Source: Hyphomicrobiales bacterium
GTDB taxonomy: Bacteria > Pseudomonadota > Alphaproteobacteria > Rhizobiales > Xanthobacteraceae
Length of the DNA: 64,000 bases
Reading direction: 5' to 3'
Assembly (NCBI GenBank): GCA_017305555.1
Contig: JAFKKM010000019.1
Location: forward strand, 1 to 64,000
This document shows, piece after piece, positions 26,342 to 64,000 of this stretch; the stretch's first letter is position 1, and every line of letters starts with the position of its first letter. Position numbers and translations under genes: made by a program. Under the pieces are notes generated by a model. The model did no database searches. It was not told the origin of the DNA and was given only the letters and a program-made list of their open reading frames with translations.

Positions 26342-26416
26342 TGGTGGGCGCACAAGGGATCGAACCTTGGACCTCTCCCGTGTGAAGGGAACGCTCTCCC
26401 GCTGAGCTATGCGCCC
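26342..26416 (-). tRNA. tRNA-Val (anticodon CAC)
   Basis: The minus strand folds as a complete cloverleaf: acceptor GGGCGCA paired with TGCGCCC, D arm GCTC/GAGC, anticodon stem TTCCC/GGGAG with loop TTCACAC, a T arm containing GGTTCGATCC, discriminator A, and an encoded CCA end. The anticodon CAC reads the valine codon GUG. Confidence 0.95.
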
Positions 26417-26641
26417 GGGATCGTCGGCGGCAGGGCCGCCTCAAGGTGGCGGGGCCGGTTCGACGCCGCGATTTACGAAGTGCGGGGCTCTGGTGTCAAG
26501 CGCGGCGGCGGGAAAACTGCCGGATTTGCGCCCAGTGTCACCCCGTTGGCGGCCTGACCTCCCGCCTTGCCGTCAGGCAGAGAGCGCGGAGCCGGTCGTT
26601 TCGAGCGAGAATGTGGTGGATCGGGGCTTACGTGCTCCTGT

Positions 26642-49183: not shown

Positions 49184-49259
49184 GGGCCTGTAGCTCAATG
49201 GTTAGAGCCGGCCGCTCATAACGGTCTGGTTGCAGGTTCGAGTCCTGCCGGGCCCACCA
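49184..49259 (+). tRNA. tRNA with anticodon CAU, tRNA-Ile2-like (possible tRNA-Met)
   Basis: A 76-nt cloverleaf with encoded CCA: acceptor GGGCCTG/CGGGCCC, D arm GCTC/GAGC, anticodon stem GGCCG/CGGTC with loop CTCATAA, and T arm GCAGG/CCTGC around TTCGAGT. A CAU anticodon could mean Met or lysidine-modified Ile2; the loop and the D arm (AATGGTTA) resemble Ile2. The accessory island begins about 15 bp after its 3' end. Confidence 0.88.
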
Positions 49260-49273
49260 ACGATATCAGTAGT

Positions 49274-49321
49274 TGAGCCGACACATTAAGAGCGAGTCGA
49301 TCGCCGTCTAAGAACGAGTCG
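49274..49321 (+). repeat. Candidate left end of the Tn7-like element with two TnsB-site-like direct repeats
   Basis: TAAGAGCGAGTCG (49287-49299) and TAAGAACGAGTCG (49309-49321) are direct repeats with one difference and a 22-bp period, preceded by GAGCCGACACAT. Spaced short repeats next to a terminus are typical of TnsB-binding ends. The element would start near TGAGCC at 49274. A canonical TGT terminus is not clear, and the matching right end lies outside the window. Confidence 0.4.
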
Positions 49322-49462
49322 GTTGGTTCGATAGTAGTATTTCAACCATCGCGAGCCCAATCTTATTGTGGAACGGTCGCCGGCGCTGTTCAATATCGTT
49401 AATTTTATATTATAGGCCGCGTCGGTAGGGCGATCCGAGTGACGATAAGTAAAGGAACGTGG

Positions 49463-50101
49463 GTGAGTTCGAAATTTTCGACCAACGACAGAATGGTGCG
49501 GGCTTCCGTCAAAGCCTATCTGATCGCGAGTCACGTCAATGAGGATGCTGTCGTCGTCGAGGAATTACCGGCGCATAGGGGCGCGGTGCGTTTGGACCTT
49601 GCGGTCGTAAACGGGAGACTTTCCGGAATCGAGATCAAGAGCGACTGTGATCACCTGGGGCGTCTTGGGCGTCAAGCGGAACTTTTCAGCCTCGCGGCGG
49701 ATCGAATGACTTTAGTCGTCGGAGAATCTCACCGAGACGCCGCGATGGCAATGATCCCGGATTGGTGGGCGATCACGCTTGCAACGCTGAGAGATGATGG
49801 CTGTGTCCGGTTGAGAACAATTAGGAAGGGACGTCTGAACAGGACTACAAACCCCTGTGCTCTAGTTCATCTGCTGGAACGCGAGGAGATGGTTGCTCTT
49901 TTGGAGTGGCATGACCTCGTCAAAGGATATCGAACGGCAGGTTATGCTGAATTGGCGGATCGGATCGTCGTCAAATTATCTCGCACGCAAATCGCTACGG
50001 GAGTTCGACGCCTGATCAAGATTCGTGCGTGGATTGAGAAGTCATACTCGCGGTCGGCATTTGGCAGGACGGCTGTCATCTGCGGGAAGCCAGTCTCGTA
50101 A
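49463..50101 (+). CDS. sce7726-like PD-(D/E)XK nuclease family protein
   Basis: A protein of about 212 residues. Counting from the GTG at 49439, the restriction-type fold is marked by D53 in AVRLDLAVVNGR, E65 and K67 in GIEIKSDCDHLGRLGRQ, and a following Gln, giving D-X11-E-I-K. This and the rest of the sequence (WWAITLATLRDDG, NPCALVHLLEREEM) fit the sce7726 family, usually found with an sce7725-type partner in mobile or defence islands. I prefer the GTG at 49463 (AAAGGA 6 bp upstream). The end overlaps the convergent partner gene by 26 bp. It is the first gene after the tRNA, and its base composition is lower in GC than the flanking chromosome. Confidence 0.8.
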   Translation: MSSKFSTNDRMVRASVKAYLIASHVNEDAVVVEELPAHRGAVRLDLAVVNGRLSGIEIKSDCDHLGRLGRQAELFSLAADRMTLVVGESHRDAAMAMIPDWWAITLATLRDDGCVRLRTIRKGRLNRTTNPCALVHLLEREEMVALLEWHDLVKGYRTAGYAELADRIVVKLSRTQIATGVRRLIKIRAWIEKSYSRSAFGRTAVICGKPVS

Positions 50102-51230
50102 TGTGTTGATTTGCCCTCACTGCAATCCAAGGCCCCGGAACGGTATACTTAGTGCGATCGACGATCATGTCGCCGTCGGCTACCTGATCAATAATTGAAG
50201 AACCCCAGCATTTTTGAGCCTGCGACCACTGCTCGGATTTACGTGTGGCACTCGCGCATCGAACATAACCCGAAGGGTCAGAGTTCTTGTCGTCGAGTTC
50301 GATGCGCCAAGCGTCGGAGGATGATAAGACCAAATCAACGTGAGGAAGCCAGCCGTTGCCGCCCGCCTGAGGGCGCTTACGGGGGATGGAAGCGTTGTCA
50401 CCGTAGCGAATATCAAACGTCTCCGCGAGTTGCGAGAAAAGCGTTCGCTCTTCCATCTGCAAGATTCTTGGTAAATCGCGTAAGGAGGATCCTGGAAAAC
50501 TTCCTGACACAAGAACTTTCTCAATGGCGTTGAATGAGTCTCCGAGCTGACGCCTCAAGAACGAAAATGCCTCATCGACTTTTCGTGTTGCCTCAGCCGT
50601 AGATCCGCGAACATAGCCAGCGTCTATGATCAAAATTGAATCGGATGGATTGGTTAGCTGCGCGATGCCATATGCCGCGAGTACTAGTCGTCTCGTATCG
50701 GTCGAATCGATATAGAATGCCAGCGGTATCGAGGATTTTGCCGCAGCGATTTGTGCCGATACGTCTTCCTGCGATTCCAAGCGTACAACTGGAATCATTC
50801 CCTGCCATAAAGCCGCCAGTTCGATCCAAGTCGAGGATGTTTGCAGTCCTTTCAAGAACGCGTTGAATCCCCCGGTTTTTCGTCTTATCTCAGCATAGCG
50901 TTCAAGCTCTCGTTCTGTGCGTTCGCGCATAGGCTTTTTGCCGAGTGCCTTTCGCACCTCTGCCTTTTGCCGACGTTTCTCTTCAGCTTCAACCGCTGAC
51001 GTGACCGGGCGCGGGGTCGGATCGAAACTAACGATCGCGCGCCGCCCTTCAGTAGCCTTCTGCAGGGCGGCGAAGGATTCCTCGAATGATGTAGCTTCCG
51101 TCTGCCGAGTTAAGGTTACGACAGGGGTCACCAAATCCTTGATCAGCTTGCCGCACTCAGCGTAAGCGCGCAGTTCAAAGGTTCTGGTGCTGAAGCACGG
51201 ATAGTATGATTGAGAAAAAGTATTGGTCAT
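50076..51230 (-). CDS. Beta family protein (sce7725-like), partner of the sce7726-like nuclease
   Basis: A 384-residue protein starting MTNTFSQSYYPCFSTRTFELRA, a pattern (YYPxFxxRxFEL) typical of T4 beta-like or sce7725 proteins. Central blocks include IPVVRLES, IPLAFYIDSTDTRRLVL and ILIIDAGYVRGS, which suggest a TIM-barrel-like alternation, and a C-terminal tail with WGSSIIDQVADGD. Genes of this type usually lie next to sce7726 genes, but normally in the same direction. Here the two converge and share 26 bp at their 3' ends. A defensive role is inferred from family context only. Confidence 0.8.
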   Translation of the reverse strand: MTNTFSQSYYPCFSTRTFELRAYAECGKLIKDLVTPVVTLTRQTEATSFEESFAALQKATEGRRAIVSFDPTPRPVTSAVEAEEKRRQKAEVRKALGKKPMRERTERELERYAEIRRKTGGFNAFLKGLQTSSTWIELAALWQGMIPVVRLESQEDVSAQIAAAKSSIPLAFYIDSTDTRRLVLAAYGIAQLTNPSDSILIIDAGYVRGSTAEATRKVDEAFSFLRRQLGDSFNAIEKVLVSGSFPGSSLRDLPRILQMEERTLFSQLAETFDIRYGDNASIPRKRPQAGGNGWLPHVDLVLSSSDAWRIELDDKNSDPSGYVRCASATRKSEQWSQAQKCWGSSIIDQVADGDMIVDRTKYTVPGPWIAVRANQHITRLASRR

Positions 51231-51853
51231 GGGGAAAATCTAGCGAGCCTTATATTAGTTGCGATCGTCATTTCGTCTAAATTGCGTTGCCGAGAAAATC
51301 TTGGATAACTCGCCGTACGTGCGTCGCTACGGGACGGCATTCTCGGATATTTCTGTACTTTCCGACCCTAGTGGTCCGGACCCCGATCTGGGTTTTTCGG
51401 AGCGCGCCCAGCAGTCTCGCTCCGTTTGATGTACTTGTTGCCCCGAGCATCGGAAGACACCGGTGCCAGTCCAGAAGCCGTGGCTGAAGGTGAAGCTCCA
51501 TTTCCGGAATATTCCGGCCGACAATCGAGATCAGGCCGACGAAGAGTGCGTTCATTCGGGGGTGAAGGTGGCTGATCGCTAAGGTATGATCGGCCGATCC
51601 AGTCGGCTTTCCAAGGTCATGATCGCGTGACGCCTCGTACCGTCATGCTTGCATGTGTTCTCTATTTGTTCTAGAGTGCCATGTTGGTGAGAGAAAACGT
51701 GCGGCAGCCAATAATTCAAGGATTGGTTGAATTATGACTTTTTCAGCGATAGTTCGATTGCTGACCTATTGCCGGTGCGATTCGTCTGCGGTTTTCACTC
51801 TAGGCATTCGTGTCGACCGCACGGATTTTTGCACAATCTTTTTTGGTGCCATT
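51231..51853. other. Gap between the beta protein gene and darT, with a perfect inverted repeat
   Basis: No gene that I can support. An open minus-strand frame at 51277-51555 has no recognisable features. ATAATTCAA (51711-51719) and TTGAATTAT (51727-51735) form a perfect 9-bp inverted repeat with a 7-nt spacer about 120 bp before the DarT homology begins. It could be the operator of the darTG operon. Confidence 0.5.
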
Positions 51854-52567
51854 TTGCCGCAACGTTTCATTTTCCGGATGACTTATTATGAGGATTGTCC
51901 GCGATTTTTCGCGGACGGAGAGTTGCGCTCGAAAAATCATCTGCAGCCGCAGCCCTGCCATCAAGCCAATTATGCTGCGATTGTCAGTCGACGGGGTGGT
52001 CCGGAATTCATGACGCCAGCTGGTCGGGTTATCAATGACTATGTAGCATTCTATTTTTCACCTCTGACCGCCATGTCATTCACGATTCATCGCGGAAACG
52101 TCGATTTGTTGTCACCTCAAGGATGTGTGTTGGGGAAAGCTACAATGGACGACAGAATTTTCTTTGTTGCGAACGCAGAGAAATTTCGAAATGCCGGACA
52201 CGAGTTCTGGTTTAGCAATGTAGCTTGCAATTCGCAGGCGCCTTGCCCTCAGTTCTCAAGCAATCTGGACGAGATGGAAAACCATATCGCATGGGATTTA
52301 TTTGATGAGGCGCCCATTGCCGGGCGCATCAACGAAATTGGCTATACCGGGTGCACAACGTGGCAACACAATCGAGACAAGCCGACTCGTTACCAGAACC
52401 GGAGGCAAAAGCGAATGGCAGAGTTTCTGGTAAGGGACGCAGTTCCTTTGTCGATGTTCGACTGCATCGTGACGAAGTCCGACGTCATCAAGACTGCAGT
52501 TAAGCGAATGATGCGTGACACGGATATCAATTTACCTATCTACTCGAAACCGGGATGTTATTACTGA
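51734..52567 (+). CDS. darT: DarT-like DNA ADP-ribosyltransferase toxin
   Basis: Up to 277 residues. It resembles DarT (DUF4433), which attaches ADP-ribose from NAD to thymidine in DNA. Counting from the ATG at 51734: FIFRMTYYEDCPRFFADGEL (45-64) matches the NAD-binding start, INDYVAFYFSPLTAMSFTIH (100-119) is the signature block, and RMAEFLVRD contains E230, the probable catalytic Glu. Residues 1-40 have no family similarity, so a start such as the TTG at 51854 is plausible. The ATG itself lies in the last bases of an inverted repeat. The stop overlaps darG by one base, so toxin and antitoxin are coupled. The gene is clearly AT-richer than the chromosome. Confidence 0.85.
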   Translation: MTFSAIVRLLTYCRCDSSAVFTLGIRVDRTDFCTIFFGAILPQRFIFRMTYYEDCPRFFADGELRSKNHLQPQPCHQANYAAIVSRRGGPEFMTPAGRVINDYVAFYFSPLTAMSFTIHRGNVDLLSPQGCVLGKATMDDRIFFVANAEKFRNAGHEFWFSNVACNSQAPCPQFSSNLDEMENHIAWDLFDEAPIAGRINEIGYTGCTTWQHNRDKPTRYQNRRQKRMAEFLVRDAVPLSMFDCIVTKSDVIKTAVKRMMRDTDINLPIYSKPGCYY

Positions 52568-53607
52568 TGGCTTTGACCTTCAAAACCGGGAATATGTTTG
52601 AGGAGCGCGCCGAGGCGATCGTGAATACGGTCAACTGTGTCGGTGTGATGGGAAAGGGTGTTGCGCTGGAATTTAAGCGCCGCTGGCCGGAGAATTTCAG
52701 CGCCTATAAGCGCTTGTGTAATAGTCAGAGGTTGCGTCCAGGTAAGGTCTACGTGCACCAAAACACGGAGATGTTTCATGATGATGGACGGAAGTTCCTT
52801 GTAAATTTCCCGACGAAGGATCATTGGCGGTCGAAATCTAGGATGGAGTTCATTGAGAGCGGGCTCGACGATCTTGTCGAACAGATTCAGCGGCTCCGCA
52901 TACGATCAGTAGTTTTGCCACCGTTAGGATGCGGAAATGGTGGTTTAGATTGGAGCGAGGTGAGAGATCTGATTACGTTCAAGCTTTCACAGATCGCTGA
53001 CGTAGATTTCGTCGTTTTTGCTCCGGTCAACGATGGCACAGAAGAAGGCAAAGATTCACCTGGTGTTCGGATGACTTTTGAACGCGCCTTGCTTTTGAAG
53101 GCGTTCAATGATCTTGCCGTTTATTTCGATGGCAGTTTCACACACGTTTCAATGCAGGAGTTGGTTTATTTGTTGCAGGAAATGGGAGCAGGCTTTGGCC
53201 TGACATTCTCCCGGAAGGAGTTCGGGCCTTATTCAGATGGCTTGCAAGACGCATTTGTCACCATGAAACGTCAGGGACTTATTGCTGGTTTTAGTGTTCA
53301 CTCTGACCAGATTGTGGTGACATCTGAAGGTATCCGTCTTGCGGAAGAATTTCTTCAAGGTGAAGAGCGCGCACGCGCTGATACTCTTGTTCAATGTCTA
53401 AGCCGACTGATTGAAGGATATGAAAGTCCTTATGGGCTGGAGCTTCTTTCTTCGGTTCACTTTGTTGCGCATTATGAAGATGCAAAGGGCGTTGAAGCTA
53501 TATCTGGCGTTCTTGGTGGATGGAGCGCTCGCAAGGGTCTAGAATTCAATGCTGAGATGCTGGGTGTTGTCATCGACCGTTTAAATGAAGATCGTTTGCT
53601 GGGCTGA
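52567..53607 (+). CDS. darG: DarG-like macrodomain antitoxin
   Basis: A 346-residue antitoxin. The N-terminal macrodomain (1-155) begins LTFKTGNMFEERAEAIVNTV and contains NCVGVMGKGVALEFK, with the Lys expected for DNA de-ADP-ribosylation, and VVLPPLGCGNGGLDW. The C-terminal domain (about 180-346), with the pattern LVYLLQEMGAGFGLTFSR and YGLELLSSVHFVAHYE, matches the DarG region that binds and blocks DarT. It directly follows darT (TGATG). It removes the ADP-ribose mark and neutralises the toxin; such pairs are known in phage defence. Confidence 0.9.
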   Translation: MALTFKTGNMFEERAEAIVNTVNCVGVMGKGVALEFKRRWPENFSAYKRLCNSQRLRPGKVYVHQNTEMFHDDGRKFLVNFPTKDHWRSKSRMEFIESGLDDLVEQIQRLRIRSVVLPPLGCGNGGLDWSEVRDLITFKLSQIADVDFVVFAPVNDGTEEGKDSPGVRMTFERALLLKAFNDLAVYFDGSFTHVSMQELVYLLQEMGAGFGLTFSRKEFGPYSDGLQDAFVTMKRQGLIAGFSVHSDQIVVTSEGIRLAEEFLQGEERARADTLVQCLSRLIEGYESPYGLELLSSVHFVAHYEDAKGVEAISGVLGGWSARKGLEFNAEMLGVVIDRLNEDRLLG

Positions 53608-53648
53608 GGTCGTTTGTTGTCGATTCATTCGGCCGAAGCTACAGACAG

Positions 53649-54116
53649 TTGGAAATTCTCGTGATCGCAATAGGGCTGCGGGCGGCACCGTCTGAAATCA
53701 CATATGCGATCTATGATGTCGACGCAAAAGCGGTGGTCGATATTGATCAGATTGTCGTTCCGACCGCCATGGAATGGCCCGCCGCACTCAAGTACGTTCG
53801 AAGTAATCTGTTGGATATCCTACGTGAGTATGAGGTGCGCTGTGCTGGAATTCGTTTGGCGGAAAGCAACGCCAAAACGCAAAATATCAGCCGATTGCAC
53901 CTCGAAGGAGTGATTCAAGAAGCATTCGCAAGCAGCGACCTCAATGGTTATTACGTTGGGGCGATTCCGACGATGGCTGCACGTCTCGGCGTGCCTAGGG
54001 GCGACATGCGGGGCATCATCGGCGGAATCAACAGATTTGAAGTTGAGGGGTGGGATAAATTGTCGGAGAAAGAGCGCGAAGCCCTTCTTGCTGCGATGGG
54101 ATCGCTCCGTGTTTAG
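53649..54116 (+). CDS. Unknown protein with possible RNase H-like fold, in operon with a kinase
   Basis: A 155-residue protein, not recognised as a named family. The pattern is a beta-hairpin start (LVIAIGLRAAPSEITYAIYD, then AVVDIDQIVVP), a helix (ALKYVRSNLLDILREYEV), beta (CAGIRLAESNA), a helix (LHLEGVIQEAFAS) and YYVGAIP, followed by a charged helical tail (EREALLAAMG). The order and the E/EGVIQEA pattern recall RuvC/RNase H-like folds, but catalytic acids are not clearly in place, so this is inference. The start is TTG at 53649 or GTG at 53661. It is 41 bp after darG and shares 8 bp with the kinase gene. Confidence 0.6.
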   Translation: MEILVIAIGLRAAPSEITYAIYDVDAKAVVDIDQIVVPTAMEWPAALKYVRSNLLDILREYEVRCAGIRLAESNAKTQNISRLHLEGVIQEAFASSDLNGYYVGAIPTMAARLGVPRGDMRGIIGGINRFEVEGWDKLSEKEREALLAAMGSLRV

Positions 54117-55149
54117 TCCCCTTCAGATCGCCCAGGTGGCTTTCGAATTTCGCGAAGAGATCGGTGCGGATGGAAAGAACTCCCAGACATTTCTTGCTTA
54201 TGATCATCAGCTTGATGCCAATATCGTCATCAAGAAGATAGCGAAGGCCGATATTGAGGATAGAGAGACATATTTTGAGGAATCGCGAAGATTATACGCG
54301 AGCGCTCATCCCAATGTAGTGCAACTCCATTACGCTTGTGAGGATGATGATCATATCTTCGTTGCAATGCCCTTCTATCGGAAGGGCTCTCTCAAGCATT
54401 TGATCAACGAAAGATACCTGACGGTACGTGAAATCGTTGCGTACGGCTGCCAGATCGCAAGCGGTCTGCATAATATCCATTCCAAGGGCCTAATTCATTT
54501 CGATGTGAAAGCCGACAACGTGTTGCTGTCGGATCGCAATGAGGCGTTAATATCAGACTTTGGCTTGGCGATGGCCCAAAATACTGCGGGTAAAGCTTTG
54601 CCCTACGGCGTCTACGTGCCCATTACTCCACCAGAATCTCTCTCTGAATTCGAATTCGATAGAACCTACGACATTTACCAGTTTGGTATTGCGCTCTACG
54701 TGATGTGTAACGGACCAAAGTGCCTGTCAGATCAGGTGAGTAGCTTTGAAATCGATCACGATCTGGGCGCAAATGCTTTTTATACGGCTTTGACGGACGG
54801 AAAATTTCCTGATCGTAAAGCCTTTCTTCCGCATATTCCGAGCAAACTGAGACGAATTATCGTCCGTTGTTTGAACATTGACCCTGGAAAGCGGTACCTC
54901 TCTGCTTTGGACGTCGCTAATGATCTGGCACAGGTGGATGGGTTACTGGATTGGCATTTCGAGGTTTTGCCTACGGGCCGCCGATGGACACGCGCAGTTA
55001 ATGGCACGATCATTGTCTTGGACGTTGAGCAAGGAGGCTCAAGTGTCATGACCAAGTCCGTGAATGGAAGCAAGGCAAAGCGGCAGACCAATGGATGTAA
55101 AGTGAATTTGACCGATGCCGGGATCTCAAAGTTGCTTGGAGCATCATGA
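54109..55149 (+). CDS. Eukaryotic-type Ser/Thr protein kinase, HFD variant
   Basis: A 346-residue cytosolic kinase. It has a degenerate glycine loop (EIGADGKNSQTF), the ATP-binding K42 in NIVIKKI, and a Glu in the following helix. The catalytic loop IHFDVKADNVLL has H130-F131-D132, K134 and N137, with Phe where most kinases have Arg. DFG is at 150-152, and an activation segment with PPESLSEFEFDRTYDIYQFG follows. No membrane helix is present. The last 60 residues form a short C-terminal extension (FEVLPTGRRWTRAVNGTIIV, then a basic tail). GTG at 54109 was chosen because it lies in the end of the previous gene. The target is unknown. Confidence 0.85.
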   Translation: MFSPLQIAQVAFEFREEIGADGKNSQTFLAYDHQLDANIVIKKIAKADIEDRETYFEESRRLYASAHPNVVQLHYACEDDDHIFVAMPFYRKGSLKHLINERYLTVREIVAYGCQIASGLHNIHSKGLIHFDVKADNVLLSDRNEALISDFGLAMAQNTAGKALPYGVYVPITPPESLSEFEFDRTYDIYQFGIALYVMCNGPKCLSDQVSSFEIDHDLGANAFYTALTDGKFPDRKAFLPHIPSKLRRIIVRCLNIDPGKRYLSALDVANDLAQVDGLLDWHFEVLPTGRRWTRAVNGTIIVLDVEQGGSSVMTKSVNGSKAKRQTNGCKVNLTDAGISKLLGAS

Positions 55150-55328
55150 TGACTGTTAAGAATAGGCCGAATGAATACAGAAAGCGATCGACTCCAAGGC
55201 CGGTAAGCAGAACGGTGGTGTCTATTGATTCGGTACAGAATCTCCGGCGAGCATTTGTCGCTGCGTTACGTACTTCGGGATTTCATTTCCATATTGATCT
55301 AAGAAAAGTTCGAAGGGGCCTCCGATAA
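55146..55328 (+). CDS. Small basic protein following the kinase, unknown
   Basis: A 60-residue basic protein (about 14 Arg/Lys) beginning MMTVKNRPNEYRKRSTPRPV and containing SVQNLRRAFVAALRTSGFH. Its ATG overlaps the kinase stop codon by 4 bp (ATGA), which suggests translational coupling. The many Ser and Thr residues next to Arg make it a possible kinase substrate, but that is inference. The gene ends 17 bp before the convergent tniQ gene. No family recognised. Confidence 0.45.
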   Translation: MMTVKNRPNEYRKRSTPRPVSRTVVSIDSVQNLRRAFVAALRTSGFHFHIDLRKVRRGLR

Positions 55329-55345
55329 ACAAATCTGGGAACGCG

Positions 55346-57379
55346 CTAGTTCCCGAGTGAGTTATCCTCGGGGATATCCTCCACGGCCGCCCGATCAAAT
55401 GCCAGATACTTGTTCGGCTCGAGTTCAAGGGAAACCTCGACCCCTCGCTCCGCAAGCCACTTACGGACGTCCCGAGATCGTCGTATCTTCGCCCGCTCGA
55501 CGATCTCCGGAACGAAAATGTACCGACGAAAGAATTCCTCGATCTGTTCGCGGTCGTACAGCGTATGAGCGTGTGGGCCGGATCGATCTAAATAGCCCCT
55601 GCTTGCCAACGCACTAATCGTTGCCTCATTGACACGGAGCATTTCGGCAGCGGTCCGATTGCCGACCCATCTATCGGCAACTGACGTATCTTCCGGAATG
55701 AGTTCGGCCTGAACTGCTGCGATGAACTGACGCAACTCGCATGTTCCCGAACCAGTCCTCCAGGTTTTGTTTTCACCCGCTACGCGGTGAATTTCCGCCT
55801 TTCCGGATACGATGGCCGAGATCACGGCGCCCCAAGGGATGGGCGACATGCCCAGGCGTTTGACGGCTTTGGATAGCCGGAGAGCCTGCGTCCCGGCAGG
55901 GCGAGGTCGAATGGCAGCGTCGATCCTGCCCGCTAATTCCTTGACCTCTTCATTCCGAAAATAGGTGTCCGTGCTTTCGAACAACCCGGTCGCCGGACCT
56001 TGAATCCGATGGATCAGCCCGCGGGATTCTAGACTAGCGAGGGTCGAGACGTCGACGCCGAGAGAACCAGCCGCAAATTTCTGATGAATCCGGTCGTTAT
56101 AGATATCGATCAGTGGCGCCACGTCATCGTAGTTCATCAACTTCGGCGCTCTTTTCGCGGCGGTTGCCGTGATGACCTTCACCAGGCCGCTATCCGCCAA
56201 TCGGGCCAATACGCGCGGCGGGACGCCAGTTTTTGCGGACAAGGGTTTCAATCCCATGTACCCGTCATTCCGCGCATAATCATTGCGGCGGGTAAGGTTG
56301 CTGGAGTTGGCCCCTTTCATGTCATTGTGGATCGCCTTACGGATGATCTTTCGCGTCGCCTCGCTTAAGTGCTGGTCTAGGCTTACGCAGAATAACGGCA
56401 ACAACTCCTTTTTGACCCCATAGAATCCGACCCGATCCTTCGCATCCCGTCGAACTCTGTCCGCAAGCTCGGCAAACCCATGCTCGCCGTCCAGTACGAC
56501 GCGTGCAGCCGACGTCAGGATGTCGGGTGTGAACCTTTGATAGGATTCCTGCCGTTTGGGGCGTTCAAGGGTGGTTGAACGTGTGCCATCACTCTTCATG
56601 ATGAGGGCGCACGCAAAGGCAATGATTGTCTCGAACATCTCCGAACAGGATTGAACGCCCCACATTTCCTGGTCGGCCTTCCGGAGTGCCTCTCTTCGCA
56701 CATCCGGATCCGGTGCGATCAATTCGACAAGGAAATCCAGGGCTTCGACGTCATCGACACTGATCAATGGCTGCGGATAGTCCCGAAGATCGACTTGGGC
56801 GAACCCATCCTCGTCGCGGCACCATTCACACATGTGGGTGCCATATGCGCGAGTCCAGGACAGCAGCTTTTTACATTCGGGGCATTTGTCTAGAAGCGAT
56901 TCCTTGGTTTCCGGATCGAAGGAGAAGACCCGCAAGTCCCAAATTGCCCGGTGATGCAGAGATTTCCGCAATGCTCGCGGCGACACGCGGCGTGCGTGCG
57001 GAAATCGATATGCCACCCTGACCATCGTGCCGAAGAAGTCGATCGCGGCACTTTTCCCGTTGTCCAACGTTCCCGAACGATAAAGGCGCTTTTCAATCTC
57101 CTTCTCGGTTGTCTGGAGCAGTGTCGCAAGTCCCCGGATTTCATTGGGATCAGTGAGGGTTGTTGGGAGGCTGTCCGGCGAAAGCTTGCCGATGCCAGCC
57201 AACGTAAGGGCCTGCACGACAGACCGTACAGGCGTGCGGGCGAAGCATCCCGTGAGGAACCCGAGCAGACTTTCATCGATCTCCGGGGAGGGGAGATTGA
57301 CCGCAAAGGGACGGACTTCCTCTAACGACAGGACAGAAAGACGCCCGCCCGCCGAGATTGGCTGGGGCGACACCATCAT
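55346..57379 (-). CDS. tniQ: TniQ/TnsD-type target-selection protein, long form
   Basis: A 677-residue protein. The N-terminal TniQ domain has LPSPEIDESLLGFLTGCFAR near residues 30-48, and a zinc finger with C166, C169, C184 and C187 (CPECKKLL, then CEWC). The long C-terminal part contains repeated helix-turn-helix-like segments: PLSAKTGVPPRVLARLADSG, SLGVDVSTLASLESRGLIH and TAAEMLRVNEATISALASRG, the last followed by YDREQIEEFFRR as in MerR-like wings. TnsD of Tn7 is about 510 residues, so this is clearly longer and probably reads a long DNA site. Its start overlaps the tnsC stop codon by 4 bp. A tRNA-associated target is inferred from the island position. Confidence 0.85.
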   Translation of the reverse strand: MMVSPQPISAGGRLSVLSLEEVRPFAVNLPSPEIDESLLGFLTGCFARTPVRSVVQALTLAGIGKLSPDSLPTTLTDPNEIRGLATLLQTTEKEIEKRLYRSGTLDNGKSAAIDFFGTMVRVAYRFPHARRVSPRALRKSLHHRAIWDLRVFSFDPETKESLLDKCPECKKLLSWTRAYGTHMCEWCRDEDGFAQVDLRDYPQPLISVDDVEALDFLVELIAPDPDVRREALRKADQEMWGVQSCSEMFETIIAFACALIMKSDGTRSTTLERPKRQESYQRFTPDILTSAARVVLDGEHGFAELADRVRRDAKDRVGFYGVKKELLPLFCVSLDQHLSEATRKIIRKAIHNDMKGANSSNLTRRNDYARNDGYMGLKPLSAKTGVPPRVLARLADSGLVKVITATAAKRAPKLMNYDDVAPLIDIYNDRIHQKFAAGSLGVDVSTLASLESRGLIHRIQGPATGLFESTDTYFRNEEVKELAGRIDAAIRPRPAGTQALRLSKAVKRLGMSPIPWGAVISAIVSGKAEIHRVAGENKTWRTGSGTCELRQFIAAVQAELIPEDTSVADRWVGNRTAAEMLRVNEATISALASRGYLDRSGPHAHTLYDREQIEEFFRRYIFVPEIVERAKIRRSRDVRKWLAERGVEVSLELEPNKYLAFDRAAVEDIPEDNSLGN

Positions 57380-58437
57380 GATGCTGCAGCCGCATTTTGG
57401 CGAGACGTCTCAGCCTCCTCCTCGGCGAGAATCCGGAGGGTGTCTCGCTTAACGCCCTTAAGGAAGGGATCGTAGTAGGTGACACCATCGCCCACCTTCG
57501 ATGCACGGTTCCGAGCTTGGATCGACCGCTCGATGTCGTCCCATTTTAGGAAGCCTCGGTCGTTGGCGAAGGCCCGATCCAGCGCCGTTTTCATGATCCT
57601 GCTGACGCTGCCGATCACCCCACTGGCAAAATCATAGACGCACGCACGGTTTTCGACCGTATCGAGAAGACCTATCTCCTTGTCGATGACGCCCTTTAGA
57701 CGCATCTCGTCTTCCAAAAGCCCAACGAAATTGAAGAAGTAATCTCGTTCTTCGCGCTCTTTGATGCTAAACGCGCCGAAATCGACCGTATCCACTAAGC
57801 GCCCGGCCAATTCCTTGTCCGCTACGAACAACTGAGCCAATTCGTTGGTGCCAACACAAACGATCGAAAAAATCCCATCGTTGACTAGACTCTTCATCGA
57901 TTTTGCCATGGCAACGGTACTTTTCTCGGCACCGTTGATGATCATGTTATGAGCTTCGTCGAAGACGACAATCGAGGTTTTGCGGTCGCGTGCGATGGCG
58001 CGAATGTCTGCGTTCACCCGAGTTTCGGAATAATCACGCGCGTTCAGCAGGACGGTCGAACTGTTGTCGCCGTAGGCTTCGAGGATCTGGGCCTGCAAAG
58101 CTCTCGGATTTCTCGTGGAAGTACGGATTGTTGCGTGCAGAACAGGAACGTCCCTGTCCGCTAAAGATTTGTCCGCCAAGAGTCTTTCAATCACCGTGCT
58201 GATCGTCTTGGATTTCGTGGCGCCGGAAGGGCCGATGATCGGTAAAACCCAGAGGTGATCCACCGGAAGTGACCGCCCCTTGACCTGAGCTTGCCGCTTC
58301 TCGTCTTTCGCGATGCGGGCGTGGGTATCGTCGATGAGGTCCAGGATGCGATTTTCCACCTCGTTCATGCGTGGATGCGGAATGACGATGGAATCGAAGG
58401 CGTCCAATCGGCGGCGCCGTTCAGCTCTTGAGATCAT
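57376..58437 (-). CDS. tnsC: TnsC/TniB-type AAA+ transposition regulator
   Basis: A 353-residue AAA+ ATPase that would connect target selection by TniQ to the TnsA-TnsB transposase. The N-terminal part (RMNEVENRILDLIDDTHARI) is TniB-like. Walker A reads IIGPSGATKSKT around K75, with Thr in the place of the usual Gly before the Lys. Walker B is SIVVFDEAHN (D160, E161), and sensor-1-like IVCVGTNELAQL follows, then a Glu/Arg region ADKELAGRL. It lies 25 bp after tnsB and overlaps tniQ by 4 bp. The overall order ABC-Q matches Tn7-like core modules. Confidence 0.88.
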   Translation of the reverse strand: MISRAERRRRLDAFDSIVIPHPRMNEVENRILDLIDDTHARIAKDEKRQAQVKGRSLPVDHLWVLPIIGPSGATKSKTISTVIERLLADKSLADRDVPVLHATIRTSTRNPRALQAQILEAYGDNSSTVLLNARDYSETRVNADIRAIARDRKTSIVVFDEAHNMIINGAEKSTVAMAKSMKSLVNDGIFSIVCVGTNELAQLFVADKELAGRLVDTVDFGAFSIKEREERDYFFNFVGLLEDEMRLKGVIDKEIGLLDTVENRACVYDFASGVIGSVSRIMKTALDRAFANDRGFLKWDDIERSIQARNRASKVGDGVTYYDPFLKGVKRDTLRILAEEEAETSRQNAAAAS

Positions 58438-58462
58438 GGTCAGAAATCCGGGTGAAAGGAGG

Positions 58463-60772
58463 TCAGCGCTTTGTATTCCAGGTCCAATTTTGTCTCTTTC
58501 TCAGTTGCTCGCTGTAGGATTTATCGGAAGATGCGGCGTGATCGGTTCCGGAAAGATGAATACGCTGCCGTTCTTCCTCTGCAGCCGCTTTCGCTGCGGC
58601 TTCACGATCGTTGGCCTCCTGCTCGGCCTTCCTGCGCGCTCGCGTTTTCTTGGCCCGTGCAAGGGATTCTTTCGATGGTGTAAAGCCAGCCGGTGGTTCC
58701 ATATCGTCGATCCGATCGAAGGCCGGAGGATCGGTCGGGACAAGCGTTGCCTCGGCATATCCGTCAACCGACGGCTTGGACGTGCTGTCGAGAACGTCCC
58801 GGTTGCGGACGATGCTTGGTTTCGGCTCGACGTCCGCTTCCTCGTAGGTGCCCATTGTCTGGGCAATGCCACGGCGTGCATCCCGGGCATCGCCTATGCG
58901 TTTCCCCGCGAGGGCGTCGTACTCCCTACGCAGGCGCTCCCGCGCTTGCCACTGCTCTTCATCCGTTTGGAAACGGAGGTCCTTTTCCAGAGCGTATTCG
59001 CGAACTTTGGCCGCCTGCCAAAAAGACAGATGATCTGTGAACCGCTGAGAAACATTGGACAACGCAACGTAGTGCTTGATCTCCGCTCCGTGATTCCAGA
59101 CCTCGATCTTGGATGCGTCCGCGGGATTCCATTTGAACTTTACGCGTGTGCGGGCCGAGGATATCGGTTTGGTTGATTGGGTGCGCTTTGCCTCCAGTCG
59201 CAACATGTCCTCAAGGAGTCGTGTGGTCGCCGCAGGTTCGTGAAACACCATGTTCTCGAACTTGATCCCCCGCCGCGTCAACGTTCCGACCCCGACGCGA
59301 CCGAGCATGGCGCCAAGTTGGCGGGTATCGGGAATGAATCGGCGGCCATGACGATTGATCTTCTCGTCCCACATCCGTGCGGGAATAGCGCCGAGCCCTT
59401 CGTTGAATTCGTTCTGGTAGACGATGATTGCATGATGGATGAGACGATCGAGCGCGCCCAAGCTGATGACCGCATTCTCTGACGGCTTGAGGCCGAGTTG
59501 GCTCATTGTCTTCGGATCGTAAGGAACGCCACCCTCGAGCTTATGAAACAACATCGTGTTGAGCGTCCGGAAAAAGCGCTCCCCGATGGCCTTGTATTCC
59601 GGTGTTCTGACGGGAGCCCAAATGATCTCGGTGCCGATGTCGGCGAGGGCGTCCTGAAACGATGGAGAGGTGAATTCGAGCCCGTTATCGACGAGGATCG
59701 CTTCCGGATGACCCCAGCCGTCCCACTTTCCCTCAATGTCTCCAAAAACCTTCGCGATATAGCCCTTGTTCTTGTTGACTCGCCGGAGGGTGGTCAAAAC
59801 CGAATAGAGGCTGGCAGGTTCAAACGAAATCAGATGCCCTAGCGGCATCCGCGTTGCGACGTCTATTGCGATCGTGAGGCATGCCCGTTGCTTGAACGGA
59901 ATACCCGTTGTCGTATCGAGAACTGTCCAGGTGTCGACCACGGTATGATCCATGATCACCAGTTCCAAAGGCTTGTCCGCCTGAAGCCCGCGACGAACGC
60001 CCTTGAATTTCCGATCGGCTTCCAGTTTTGAATACTTGCGCGCCCAGTTCGCATGGTTCGTCGCCGCATTGATCCGGCGGCGCAACGATTCCATCTTCTT
60101 CGGAAATGGAAGGATCGGAAGTTCAGCGAGATGACGGCGTTCGTTCTCGCGCCGGATCAGGCCACGGAAATGCGCGTAAGCGTCCTGGTAGTCCCAGGTT
60201 CGGTCGCTCCAATATTCGATAACGGCCGCGTCGAGGGCTTTAAGCACGAAATCGTTCAAGCGCTTTCGAGTCCCTTTTCCTCGGCGTGATCGGAAGAGCC
60301 GCAAAGGACGGTTGCCGATCTCACCGCATCCACGGATTGCTTCATACAAGCGTGCAGGCTTCACGTCGTGCAAATGTCCCCGCTGTATGGCTTCAGGCCG
60401 CCATCGGTGAATGAAGACAGCAAGGGCTCTGCGGCCCAATCCGATCGTGCCATCCGCATCCCATCTGCGTACATAGAATTGAAGAGTCTGAGCACGCACG
60501 ATCTCCGGAGAACCTTCCTCGTCCGGACCAAACTCATCATTGAAGTTGGCGGGTTGAACCTGTTCGCCTGAAGCCGTTCGGGTTTTGAAGAAGTTGATCT
60601 CGAAAACCTTCCCGCGCCCGTGCAGGGAAACAAACTCGTCGCGGGTGACGAATTTGTCGGCAGCCGTACGTTCCTTCTGAAACAACAGGACGTCGTTGGG
60701 ACGTTCACTGCAAAAGCGGTGGACTCCTTCCGGAAACTCCCAAAGGGAGCCGATTTCGATCAACAACTCCAC
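58463..60772 (-). CDS. tnsB: TnsB-type DDE transposase (rve integrase core)
   Basis: A 769-residue transposase of the Tn7/Mu type. The N-terminal DNA-binding part (1-265) contains KGTRKRLNDFVLKAL and PFPKKMESLRRRIN. The catalytic triad is D275 (VIMDHTVVD), D362 (ILVDNGLEFTSP) and E398 (AIGERFFRTLN). A beta-barrel region follows (VKFKWNPADASKIEVW). The C-terminal 140 residues are charged and probably disordered (RAKKTRARRKAEQEANDRE), ending near the TnsC-binding tail typical of TnsB. It cuts the 3' strands and joins them to the target. It is 5 bp after tnsA. Confidence 0.92.
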   Translation of the reverse strand: MELLIEIGSLWEFPEGVHRFCSERPNDVLLFQKERTAADKFVTRDEFVSLHGRGKVFEINFFKTRTASGEQVQPANFNDEFGPDEEGSPEIVRAQTLQFYVRRWDADGTIGLGRRALAVFIHRWRPEAIQRGHLHDVKPARLYEAIRGCGEIGNRPLRLFRSRRGKGTRKRLNDFVLKALDAAVIEYWSDRTWDYQDAYAHFRGLIRRENERRHLAELPILPFPKKMESLRRRINAATNHANWARKYSKLEADRKFKGVRRGLQADKPLELVIMDHTVVDTWTVLDTTTGIPFKQRACLTIAIDVATRMPLGHLISFEPASLYSVLTTLRRVNKNKGYIAKVFGDIEGKWDGWGHPEAILVDNGLEFTSPSFQDALADIGTEIIWAPVRTPEYKAIGERFFRTLNTMLFHKLEGGVPYDPKTMSQLGLKPSENAVISLGALDRLIHHAIIVYQNEFNEGLGAIPARMWDEKINRHGRRFIPDTRQLGAMLGRVGVGTLTRRGIKFENMVFHEPAATTRLLEDMLRLEAKRTQSTKPISSARTRVKFKWNPADASKIEVWNHGAEIKHYVALSNVSQRFTDHLSFWQAAKVREYALEKDLRFQTDEEQWQARERLRREYDALAGKRIGDARDARRGIAQTMGTYEEADVEPKPSIVRNRDVLDSTSKPSVDGYAEATLVPTDPPAFDRIDDMEPPAGFTPSKESLARAKKTRARRKAEQEANDREAAAKAAAEEERQRIHLSGTDHAASSDKSYSEQLRKRQNWTWNTKR

Positions 60773-60777
60773 GATGA

Positions 60778-61536
60778 TCAGTTCCGGAGATTTGCGAGGT
60801 GACGAAGCTCGGTGCCATGGTCAAAGACTTGCCGTATATTCACGAATGCGGCGCGTCTTACGATCAAAGCGCAGACGAGAGCGAAGGCCAACGGATCGAA
60901 ACGATCACGGCTTTCACTGACGGCTTCAATAGCCTCGCCCAGAGCGAGACTTCCGCCCGCCGCGTCGAGCGCCTCGTGAAATCGCAGTTCATCGAGTGTA
61001 TCGACTTGAGTGAACCGGTAACTCTGGATGGTCCTCGCGTTCGAGAGAAAGGGCTCGATCTCGATATCGTCGGTCGCGGTTAGTATCCTGAACTTGTAGC
61101 CTTTGGCCTCATATACTTCCCGCGCAAATTCGAGCTTCGCTTCGTAGGCCGGATCGCTGCGGATTTCGTTCCAGTCCTTCTTCACTTCAATGATTTCTTG
61201 GCTTCCATCGGCGCGCTCGCACAGCAAATCCGGAAAATACTCGAGATCGCGGGCCGTCGTACTGCGGTCGAGCAATGGCATCGTGACGCGATGCGGTTGT
61301 TCCAGATAACTGACGACGTCAGGATCGGCTTCGCATAGCCACATCAACTGGCGTTCGTGAACGGATTCCCAGGTATGGGCGCGCGCGTTCTTATAAGAAG
61401 GATATCGGCCGATCGGCTTCCGCTTTCCCCGACAATGAATGGTGCGGACCGAACGACCTTCGGGGCCGCGCGTGATCTCCGCAACCGCGTTGACGTAACG
61501 CCTGGCTTCGGCGTGAACTTCTTTCTCTTTCAGCAT
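60778..61536 (-). CDS. tnsA: TnsA-type endonuclease
   Basis: A 252-residue restriction-fold endonuclease that cuts the 5' strands so that transposition is cut-and-paste. The core residues are E61 in SVHERQLMWLCEADPDVVSY, D103 in YFPDLLCE, and E117 with K119 in IIEVKKDW, matching the E-D-ExK pattern of Tn7 TnsA. The C-terminal domain (about 165-252) is helical and may bind TnsC. Presence of TnsA, absent in Tn5053-type relatives, suggests simple insertion without cointegrates. Confidence 0.9.
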   Translation of the reverse strand: MLKEKEVHAEARRYVNAVAEITRGPEGRSVRTIHCRGKRKPIGRYPSYKNARAHTWESVHERQLMWLCEADPDVVSYLEQPHRVTMPLLDRSTTARDLEYFPDLLCERADGSQEIIEVKKDWNEIRSDPAYEAKLEFAREVYEAKGYKFRILTATDDIEIEPFLSNARTIQSYRFTQVDTLDELRFHEALDAAGGSLALGEAIEAVSESRDRFDPLAFALVCALIVRRAAFVNIRQVFDHGTELRHLANLRN

Positions 61537-61797
61537 AGCTTTCTGCCGCCACTCAAACCGTCACTCGCTTCGCGGGTAACGAGCGAATTCTTGCTTCCTG
61601 AAAGTTGCGGAAGGGTTCACTGGGGAGTCCTTCCGTCAACAACGCGAAACGCGGTGAAGAGTCCGTTACCCGAAATGGTTGTCATACGCGCAACGCGACT
61701 GCATGTTGCGGAGTCCATGACAGGGGTAGCCGGTGTCGCAATAGAGAAAGTCGACGATCATCACATCCCGGATCGAATCGAGGTGCTACGCGTCAAG
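61537..61797. other. Leader between the AAA-M41 peptidase gene and tnsA
   Basis: A 261-bp gap. A minus-strand frame at 61666-61761 could encode a 31-residue peptide (MIVDFLYCDTGYPCHGLRNM and on), with three Cys residues. It starts 36 bp after the peptidase stop. Whether it is translated is unknown. The gap could also hold the tnsABC promoter. Confidence 0.35.
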
Positions 61798-63900
61798 CTA
61801 CGTATCGAGGTTGTGTTCCTTGAATATTTGCAGGAGTTCGGATCGTTCTACGTAGCCCTCGTCCCGGAGGGCAGTCGCGATTTCGAGAATTGCAGCACAG
61901 TGAAGCTGGATGATCGTTTCGGCTTTGAGATGGCATCGATGGAGGCGATTCCTGATTGATGCCACCGTTTCCCTATCGTGCAGCATGAGTGCGCGCGAGC
62001 TATCGGGGAGCCGGACTAGGCCGCACTCGCCAAAGCCAAATCGGGTTTCGATATCGTATGCAATGTCGGTTGCCCTCTGCAGGTCTGACTGATCGCCAAG
62101 TCCTGAGCCGATTGTCACTTCCTCGGCTCCGAGCATGAGCTTCTCCGCGGCCCGGCCGCCGAGCAGCATGGTGATGATGCTTTCGAGGCCTCGGAGCGTG
62201 AGGTGACTTTCGGCACTGACCTCGCCGATGGTCAGCCCCCCGTTGTGAGTGATCCAGGCGCGGTCGGGCTCGTAGCATCCGAGGGCGGCGCCGACGACAA
62301 TGTGTCCAGCTTCATGGATGGCGACGATATTCCGCAGGTCATGAGATAATTTCGCTTGTTCTCCTTTGATTTCGAGCATGATGTCGTCGATTTTGAGAGC
62401 GCGATCACGGCGGCGCGCGGTCGATCGGGCCCTGCGGACCCAGGATTCGACATCCGCCCCGGTTCGGCCGCGAGCGGCCAATGCCAATGGGACAAGATCG
62501 GCGTCGGGAAGATCATCCTTGAGGTAGAAGCGAAATATCTGACAAAGATCGTCCGTATCGGGTGGCTCAATTGTGATGGTCTGGTCGAGCCGTCCGGCGC
62601 GTCTGATCGCCGGATCGATCATATCCGGATGATTTGTTGCGCCGACCACGACGACGCCCTCGCGGTCGTCTATCCCTGCGAGCAATTCCAGCAGAAGATT
62701 GACGATCTGGGACCAATACTCCACGTAATCGCCCTGCAGTCGGGATCGATCGGATATCCCATCCAGTTCGTCGATAAATAATATGGAGGGCGCCAATTTA
62801 CGGGCCTGCGTGAAGGCGTTTCGCATCGCCTGCAACGTTCCGGACAAGTGATTGGCCGCATTCCATTGTGCGACTGACGTCGCAACGATGGGGACACCGG
62901 CGCTACGAGCAAGAGCTTTCGCATACTGGGTTTTGCCGACGCCGGGCGAACCAGCCAGAAGAAGGCCTCGATCAATGCAAGACCAATCCAGGCGACCCCG
63001 CTTATAGGCGGAGAGGTCGCTCGCGAGGTTCAATCCCCAGTCTTTTGCCGGGCCGTAGCCCGCCAACTCTTCAAGCTTTGGCACGCTGTCGTCGAAGAGG
63101 TCTTTGTTTCGGACGATTTCGCTGAGCTTTTTGAGGCATTCATCCGGTGTCTGGCGTTTCCGTATCACGAGCTGCAGGTCGCTCACGTCAATGGCGCGCG
63201 CAAGTTCCGGGTCGATGTCGTTTGCAGGCACCGAACCGGTGACAGCTTCGATGACGAGCGAAACGGCGCTTTCATCGAGGTCGCCGAGAACGAGGTGGTG
63301 TTCGGACGTCCGCATCAAATCCCGGGGCAGATGCCGCCGCGGGTCGGTCGCAACGCCGATGATGGGTGATTGTGCGTGCAGTGCCGCCGCTATGGCGTCG
63401 TTGCCACGATCCGGGGTGTGTCCGCTTCCGGTACCATCCCGAGAGATAACCAACGCGCTTCGGCGGTGATGGCTCGGCTCATACTGTCCGTTCTGCTGGA
63501 CCCGGATGTCTGATCCGAAGGCGCACGCTTCCAGGACTTCCGCCACGAGCGCCACGTATTCAGGATTGTGTGTTGCGATGGTCACAACAGGGCTGGCGCG
63601 GCGCAATTCCTTGATCATCTCCGGCACGGTCTCGAGCGTACGAGCGGTCAAAATCGCGATGGCGGCGACATCGGGGCGGATGGAAGCATGATCATCACGG
63701 CTGGATCCGCTAGAGAGATCATCCAGCAATTTTTCGATCGGGTCATCAGGGTCACCGCTTCGCAGCATCGACTTGGAGTCGTCTCCCGATGCGCGCGCGA
63801 GGATATCGAGGAACGCCCGCGCCAACAAATCGGACGTTGCCTTCGAAGTCGATGTGGCAACAAGTGCGGTCGAACGATCATTGACTTCCGTCACAGACAT
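61798..63900 (-). CDS. Soluble AAA+ ATPase fused to FtsH-like M41 zinc metallopeptidase
   Basis: A 700-residue protein. Residues 1-270 form an N-terminal region of unknown fold containing Rossmann-like stretches (VVTIATHNPEYVALVAEVLE). An AAA+ module follows, with Walker A GSPGVGKT (317-324), Walker B ILFIDELDGI, a pore-type region SRLQGDYVEYW and arginine finger R437 (RRAGRLD). The peptidase has the zinc motif HEAGH (529-533) and D606 in SDLQRATDIA as a third ligand, as in FtsH. Unlike FtsH it has no membrane helices. It lies upstream of tnsA in the same direction, so it may be part of the element's core. Its substrate is unknown. Confidence 0.85.
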   Translation of the reverse strand: MSVTEVNDRSTALVATSTSKATSDLLARAFLDILARASGDDSKSMLRSGDPDDPIEKLLDDLSSGSSRDDHASIRPDVAAIAILTARTLETVPEMIKELRRASPVVTIATHNPEYVALVAEVLEACAFGSDIRVQQNGQYEPSHHRRSALVISRDGTGSGHTPDRGNDAIAAALHAQSPIIGVATDPRRHLPRDLMRTSEHHLVLGDLDESAVSLVIEAVTGSVPANDIDPELARAIDVSDLQLVIRKRQTPDECLKKLSEIVRNKDLFDDSVPKLEELAGYGPAKDWGLNLASDLSAYKRGRLDWSCIDRGLLLAGSPGVGKTQYAKALARSAGVPIVATSVAQWNAANHLSGTLQAMRNAFTQARKLAPSILFIDELDGISDRSRLQGDYVEYWSQIVNLLLELLAGIDDREGVVVVGATNHPDMIDPAIRRAGRLDQTITIEPPDTDDLCQIFRFYLKDDLPDADLVPLALAARGRTGADVESWVRRARSTARRRDRALKIDDIMLEIKGEQAKLSHDLRNIVAIHEAGHIVVGAALGCYEPDRAWITHNGGLTIGEVSAESHLTLRGLESIITMLLGGRAAEKLMLGAEEVTIGSGLGDQSDLQRATDIAYDIETRFGFGECGLVRLPDSSRALMLHDRETVASIRNRLHRCHLKAETIIQLHCAAILEIATALRDEGYVERSELLQIFKEHNLDT

Positions 63901-64000
63901 GAGGATGCCTCACTTTTAAAGGGACAACGACGTCGGGTTTGCTATTGGTGGCGCGCTCAGTGGCGCCGAACGTCGAGCGATGACGGGTCGAGCCTGTATA
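63901..64000. other. Upstream region of the AAA-M41 peptidase gene (window end)
   Basis: The last 100 bp contain the probable promoter of the minus-strand operon. GTCGAGC occurs twice, 15 bp apart (63972 and 63987), but does not match the 22-bp-spaced repeats near 49287. I see no right terminus here. Confidence 0.3.

Follow-up and report, generated by a model that had tools for sequence, protein, structure and literature searches.

What kind of element lies behind the tRNA(CAU) gene of the DNA described here, and what selects that gene as its target? The stretch analysed (the window) comprises 64,000 bases from a Hyphomicrobiales bacterium, namely, bases 1-64000 of contig JAFKKM010000019.1 (C53; 88,722 b), which belongs to a draft genome of 5.17 Mb (G000). 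Throughout, other G numbers and CER78 denote the relatives compared, C numbers are contigs and L numbers are fetched loci. A set of tns genes begins 6 kb inside a transposon end that adjoins the tRNA, and we favour a Tn7-like transposon in which a long TniQ is most likely a TnsD-type selector, directing insertion 13-14 nt past tRNA(CAU), a reading to which we assign a probability of roughly 0.87. A preliminary description of the window had proposed a Tn7-like lineage inserting beside a tRNA, and this is supported by the presence of both ends, by a GTAGT duplication, and by a spacing of 13-14 nt in six genomes together with a decayed copy. The features on which the argument turns are as follows.

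49184..49259, plus strand: tRNA gene, anticodon CAU (attachment gene); ARAGORN gives Met
49269..49273, no strand: 5-bp target duplication GTAGT, first copy; the second copy adjoins the A end on G000:C159
49274..49330, plus strand: transposon B end; terminus TGAGCCGACAC; TnsB-type sites TAAGAGCGAGTCG (49287) and TAAGAACGAGTCG (49309), spacing 22 bp
55346..57379, minus strand: long TniQ, 677 aa; zinc motif C166/C169/C184/C187 and C-terminal helix-turn-helix; presumed tRNA-site reader
57376..58437, minus strand: TnsC, TniB-type AAA+ (TniB E=1.1e-12); P-loop GPSGATKS, Walker B DE
58463..60772, minus strand: TnsB, DDE transposase; D275, D362, E398
60778..61536, minus strand: TnsA endonuclease; FPD and ExK

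Ends and transposition genes

The sequence TGAGCCGACACATTAAGAGCGAGTCG begins at 49274, the exact transposon end, and a second site follows 22 bp further in. The end pattern matches exactly two places in G000: C53:49274 (the B end) and C159:17129, which is the other end (the A end) and has four TnsB-type sites; the pattern scan found no second end on C53. GTAGT stands both immediately before the B end and immediately after the A end, such that the element displays the asymmetric ends with multiple TnsB-type sites and the 5-bp duplication that typify Tn7-like transposons. The preliminary description had proposed extending the sequence to the right and looking for such a duplication; the A end lies on C159, with GTAGT at both borders. 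The parts in hand amount to 42,911 b (39,449 on C53 and 3,462 on C159); the element spans at least 42.9 kb and runs out of the window past 64000. C53 and C159 presumably belong to one element, for which a 3-kb contig of G004, carrying homologues of C53:65253-65435 (75%) and of the C159 cargo (88%), provides weak support. An element end near tnsA (61.5 kb) was considered and rejected: C53 has no second end, and G004 shares 55378-62957, a stretch that enters the FtsH-like gene upstream of tnsA and runs through it up to the end of the G004 contig. As a separate observation, an A end is fused to a B end in L101 (G004:C156) at 3867-3914, with four bases between the CCGACAC motifs; this gap is too small for two elements with a normal duplication, and a circle junction, a deletion or an assembly artefact is possible.

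Both ends are known for six elements, namely those of G000, G193 (188.8 kb), G179 (16.6 kb), G765 (50.8 kb), G753 (52.1 kb) and G219 (43.9 kb), and all six have 5-bp duplications: GTAGT in G000, ATAGC in G193, CGAGA in G179, TTTTG in G765, and CTTCG in both G753 and G219. That of G179 requires the B terminus to be placed one base further out, a position chosen to fit, as the unshifted five bases mismatch. A scan of 391 genomes with the end pattern gave 18 matches, versus 21 for a reversed control, and lone two-mismatch matches, therefore, mean nothing; evidence for an end was taken solely from paired matches, second sites, duplications and the position relative to a tRNA, and the lone matches in G599, G758, G740, G110 and G083 were dropped. 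The B end of G652 is likewise a lone two-mismatch match, retained for its second site and its tRNA position. The G745 end has a profile score of 14.0, which is below that of an unrelated-looking match in G219 (16.8) and compares with 32.6-41.6 for the ends used to build the profile; it was retained solely because it lies 14 nt past a tRNA.

The frames of TnsA, TnsB, TnsC and TniQ are all open and all on the minus strand. The D275, D362 and E398 residues of TnsB, and the FPD and ExK motifs of TnsA, are kept in all four aligned members, and thus the element combines a TnsA and a TnsB bearing catalytic residues with a TnsC/TniB AAA+ regulator, as expected of a Tn7-like transposon. The preliminary description had likewise read these genes as complete and catalytically intact, and had pointed to an odd P-loop in TnsC. 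The latter is shared: GPSGATKS, GPTGSTKT or GPSGAMKS is seen in 6 of the 17 TnsC proteins compared (G000, G004, G193, G219, CER78 and G753), the GK pair is retained in the other 11, those of Methylorubrum included, and the aligned TnsC from the PDB has GDTGVGKS. Since the glycine is lost across these six proteins, we regard this as a subgroup trait, rather than as decay, and TnsC would presumably function despite it. The zinc cysteines of TniQ are invariant (11/11 aligned). The element would presumably be active in transposition.

The distance between the tns set and the B end is ~20 kb in G219, ~24 kb in G753 and ~33 kb in G765; in G193, the set is ~78 kb away from the A end. G000 and G179 have it oriented toward the B end, and G219, G753, G765 and G193 toward the A end. 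Conceivably, the tns genes could sit in a larger, unrelated island, with the end at 49274 contributed by a different element having the same type of site. The two G000 ends are, after all, on separate contigs; the tns genes, which adjoin one end in Tn7, lie 6 kb inside the B end here and ~12-104 kb from either end in four relatives; and G003, G073 and G652 each have an end, whereas the stretches searched in them yielded no tns gene. Nevertheless, we consider this quite unlikely, as G193, G219, G753 and G765 each have a single tns set enclosed by a single pair of ends with a 5-bp duplication, and the 16.6 kb of G179 combine both ends with a broken tnsC and a TniQ of 85% identity (tnsA and tnsB were not found there).

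Insertion beside tRNA(CAU)

The preliminary description had a lower-GC island starting about 15 bp past the tRNA; the end at 49274 lies 14 nt after it, and the GC content indeed drops, from 0.656 at 48-49 kb to 0.49-0.60 beyond 49 kb. The C4-G69 and C5-G68 pairs of the window tRNA(CAU) presumably mark it as tRNA-Ile2. The B end is situated 14 nt past tRNA(CAU) in G000, G219, G753 and G745, and 13 nt past it in G179 and G652, whereas in G005 a decayed B end is found, again at 14 nt (for G745, G652 and G005, only the B end is known). In all seven cases, one of them decayed, the B end is toward the tRNA, and the tRNA gene stays intact. The tRNA next to the end is identical to the window copy at 75-76 of 76 positions in six of the seven, counting the window itself; that of G652 has an additional base and, as no gapped alignment was made, stands outside this count. 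The bases from the CCA to the insertion point vary between genera and, together with the near-identity of the tRNAs, this is as expected if the determinant lies within the tRNA gene.

Uninterrupted sites, with zero mismatches, are present in G757, G784 and G662, which are of the same genus as G219, presumably Bradyrhizobium: the two flanks of the element, in G753 as in G219, overlap there by exactly 5 nt, and ARAGORN places a tRNA(CAU) beside the empty site in all three. The empty-site search matched 60 of 117 genomes, mostly with three mismatches and a different gene end. Two one-mismatch loci were fetched, of which that of G794 has a five-base overlap with a short left match and that of G838 has none; neither gave a tRNA call within 1001 bases. 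For G193, no empty site was found among 18 genomes. With a near-fixed distance and orientation beside a conserved gene at seven B ends, and three empty sites, homing beside tRNA(CAU) is well supported by sequence comparison. On the mechanism that we propose, TnsA and TnsB would cut and paste the element under the control of TnsC, and the long TniQ would bind the tRNA(CAU) gene and call TnsABC; insertion would take place 13-14 nt past the tRNA 3′ end with the B end facing the tRNA, which would remain intact, and a 5-bp duplication would result. Given its position, its architecture and the known TnsD proteins, TniQ is the likely reader of tRNA(CAU).

Alternatively, the locus might be a tyrosine-integrase genomic island within the tRNA, with the tns set as chance cargo. 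The tRNA is a hot spot: in G003 no intact B end stands behind it and a second copy of its 3′ part lies 36 kb off. For the window, such an origin is highly improbable: none of the 14 Phage_integrase places in G000 is on C53 or C159, in keeping with the preliminary description, which had seen no integrase by the tRNA, and matches on C53 to the tRNA 3′ end are at chance level. No far copy stands out on C53 (the best other match has E 0.42), and the longest match, of 18 nt at 89%, falls within the DarT open reading frame (ORF; E 6.5). Moreover, the bases past the A end on C159 are GTAGT, without tRNA sequence, so that the integrase-made 3′ copy that the preliminary description had weighed for the far border is absent from this flank, and the ends bear TnsB-type sites. 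In short, the pairing of an integrase with a duplicated tRNA 3′ end is not seen in the element parts in hand. The G003 locus itself (L075 = G003:C13:3614-3682; L074, L105/L106), in which the second tRNA(CAU) 3′ copy is followed by TGTGCCGAC, an end-like sequence, and an A end stands between them at G003:C13:22126, has the look of a decayed element combined with an integrase-type island.

A number of observations weigh against the Tn7-like, TniQ-guided reading. Two elements with complete tns sets are inserted elsewhere: in G193, the stop codon 12 nt before the element belongs to a gene that reads by eye as gabD, and in G765 the one 35 nt before it belongs to a gene that reads by eye as dksA. 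Furthermore, TniQ identity to the window fails to separate the tRNA sites (G219 and G753, 37%) from the others (G193, 33%; G765, 34%). The window TniQ does not match the Pfam TniQ model, to which the G219 protein gives only a weak match, below the cut-off (E=1.5e-4), and the AlphaFold model of TniQ is poor, with a mean pLDDT (predicted local distance difference test) of 51. In G000 itself, the stretch between the end of C53 and C159 is missing from the assembly, and the comparison with island-free relatives, suggested in the preliminary description, succeeds for G753 and G219, through the exact empty site in three genomes, but not for G000, for which no such relative is in hand.

That a guide RNA encoded in the missing part directs the insertion, instead of the TniQ protein, as in a CRISPR-associated transposon (CAST), is barely credible: although type V-K CASTs have guides against tRNA genes (PMC11406308), no clustered direct repeats occur in the three stretches covering C53:49269-87999 and C159:17099-20590, no Cas family was found among the element proteins scanned (a subset of the cargo ORFs), and the TniQ is long, like protein-guided selectors (PMC10293859). 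The parts in hand, as far as they were scanned, do not show the CRISPR array and Cas effector that would define a CAST, in line with the preliminary description, which had no CRISPR parts in view.

Relatives, other targets and known systems

TnsB searches gave some match in 33 of 198 genomes of the family, mostly distant, and at 1e-40 the TnsB profile matched 8 of 397 genomes of the order; the TniQ search gave matches in 12 of 391 family genomes. The near TnsB relatives within the family are those of G004 (96%), G193 (46%) and G219 (42%), and a near relative of the tns region is present in a metagenome-assembled genome from the Hyphomicrobiales (record JAFKKL010000181, 10,725 b); the named hosts of the lineage are Hyphomicrobiales. 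Among 3413 plasmid records, identity to TnsB is below 60% throughout, and none reaches a query coverage of 80%. G000 has two additional TnsB genes, both distant, L226 (C149) and L227 (C25), and an FtsH-like gene of the same strand precedes each of them.

Four of the six two-ended elements are at a tRNA (G000, G179, G753 and G219), and two are elsewhere (G193 and G765). The B end of G073 is, by eye, not directly behind a tRNA, and in G272 and G231 TniQ adjoins a gene reading by eye as gyrB. In two Methylorubrum genomes (TnsB 35.5%), a run of sites, mostly with 22-23 bp spacing, lies ~20 nt past tRNA-Glu(UUC); this end has about nine TnsB-type sites (L121 6160-6600, L122 7540-7980). Judging by the tRNA-Glu, gyrB-like and other sites, several genes, including those of tRNAs, appear to serve as targets in the wider group. 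The 188.8 kb between the two ends at G193:C1:4376013-4564855 (L103, L110-L118, L104), bordered by a 5-bp duplication, exceed the maximum of 140 kb reported in one survey (PMC8649781). By eye, many metabolic genes are present in the G193 element, with the tns set in the middle; no conjugation gene was recognised from a reading of gene starts only. With the tns genes far from the ends, a search that expects the ends near tnsB could overlook elements of this type.

The element resembles Tn7 in its TnsA, TnsB and TnsC with a putative selector of the TniQ family, its 5-bp duplication, its asymmetric multi-site ends and its single orientation. Tn7, however, targets glmS via TnsD, whereas here the target is tRNA(CAU), and the tns genes are far inside and may face either end. 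By sequence profile, the closest solved TnsB and TnsC are those of Tn6677 and other I-F3 CASTs (157 bits to the TnsB of Tn6677, versus 54 bits to that of Tn7), from which the element differs in that no Cas genes are seen, the TniQ is long, and TnsC is without the P-loop glycine of the aligned PDB TnsC. Elements that home to the side of a tRNA by means of TnsD (CAST I-B2, I-D and relatives, and CyCAST) similarly have Tn7-like proteins with a long TniQ/TnsD, the family to which the long protein here putatively belongs, and insert downstream of the tRNA (PMC10293859 and PMC11406308). CyCAST inserts 30-33 nt past tRNA-Leu and has CRISPR parts, in contrast to the 13-14 nt past tRNA(CAU) with no CRISPR seen here, and the I-D and I-B2 CASTs have TnsA fused to TnsB, whereas here the two are separate. 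As tRNA-homing Tn7-like elements are already known, the present one is a new lineage of that kind. The reviews consulted describe protein-guided tRNA homing for CASTs and cyanobacterial relatives; what is probably the same homing in Hyphomicrobiales, with separate TnsA and TnsB, a short, near-constant distance and clean empty sites, renders the rule by which a TniQ would read a tRNA gene directly testable. A literature search, which covered few subscription papers, found no work on this lineage, none linking Tn7-like elements, TnsD and tRNA genes to Rhizobiales, and, by title and opening of the abstract, none on such elements in Bradyrhizobium. As far as the searches reach, the lineage, the TnsC P-loop, the size of the G193 element and the FtsH-like neighbour are new.

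Cargo and the FtsH-like gene

The remaining features of the element within the window are:

49439..50101, plus strand: sce7726-family protein (PADLOC cll), cargo
50076..51230, minus strand: beta-family protein, cargo
51734..52567, plus strand: DarT toxin; domain from residue 48 of the ORF
52555..53607, plus strand: DarG antitoxin
53649..54116, plus strand: 155-aa protein, cargo; no family above the cut-off
53944..55149, plus strand: Ser/Thr kinase, mad6/PD-T4-6 type; kinase domain from residue 67-68
61798..63900, minus strand: soluble FtsH-like AAA+/M41 protease; HEAGH intact; upstream of tnsA, on the same strand

As the DarT domain begins at residue 48, and that of the kinase at residue 67-68, the true starts of both are probably later. 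Two multicopper oxidases, a heavy-metal P-type ATPase, an RND pump, CopD and a CusB-like protein are among the cargo past the window, and the stretch of C159 close to the A end adds an HpaB-type hydroxylase together with a TetR regulator. The preliminary description had called the cargo defence-type, which holds for the tRNA-proximal part within the window; beyond it, the scanned remainder (nine proteins) is mainly copper resistance. Heavy-metal cargo is likewise carried, in other hosts, by the Pseudomonas syringae copper-resistance Tn7-like transposon and the Burkholderia metal islands, a likeness drawn from the titles of the respective papers.

The FtsH-like protein has AAA and M41 domains, with HEAGH in 7/7 aligned, and the window copy has no strong membrane stretch. 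The gene is upstream of tnsA in G000, G004 (where it is cut by the contig end), G219, G765, G412, G272, G231 and G558, and G753 has its first part only; a different AAA+ protein occupies this position in G193 and CER78, and no FtsH-like gene was seen upstream of tnsA at the two Methylorubrum loci. An N-terminal profile found 39 places in 29 of 198 genomes; 16 of these places have a TnsB on the same strand no more than 10 kb downstream, with no instance of any other arrangement; ~0.04 would be expected for random places in a 5.2-Mb genome and the set of 41 TnsB places. The gene was rejected as a strict core component, as 23 of the 39 places are without such a TnsB and 25 of the 41 TnsB places are without an upstream FtsH-like gene. 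Profile searches of 20 of these 23 loci found no tns set, two weak matches to the TnsA profile (E 9e-4 and 1e-4) being disregarded. A tree built from 39 rows, of which 20 are next to tns and 19 are not (G004, G558, G753 and one short row were left out), requires 11 changes of label, where shuffling gave a mean of 13.3; 65 of 500 shuffles were as low, and hence there is no tns-only clade of FtsH-like genes.

ClpX is thought to help take the Tn7-like complex apart after insertion in other systems (PMC12326709). By analogy, the FtsH-like protease of this alphaproteobacterial group might be a transposition factor that unfolds or degrades TnsB or TnsC post-insertion, letting very large elements complete insertion without a host unfoldase; we consider this unlikely, and the gene may equally be a passenger shared with integrase islands. 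It is, nonetheless, a specific candidate for a remodelling factor encoded by the element itself, and the same literature search found nothing joining FtsH with Tn7-like elements and TnsA, or with TniQ. Several of the FtsH-like M41 genes away from tns (L206-L225) are, by eye, near a metallophosphatase-like, a 3′-5′ exonuclease-like or an integrase-like gene, possibly as a shared island module.

Elsewhere in the window, on the minus strand at 26342-26533, an ARAGORN call of a tmRNA is overlapped over its first part by a call of tRNA-Val(CAC).

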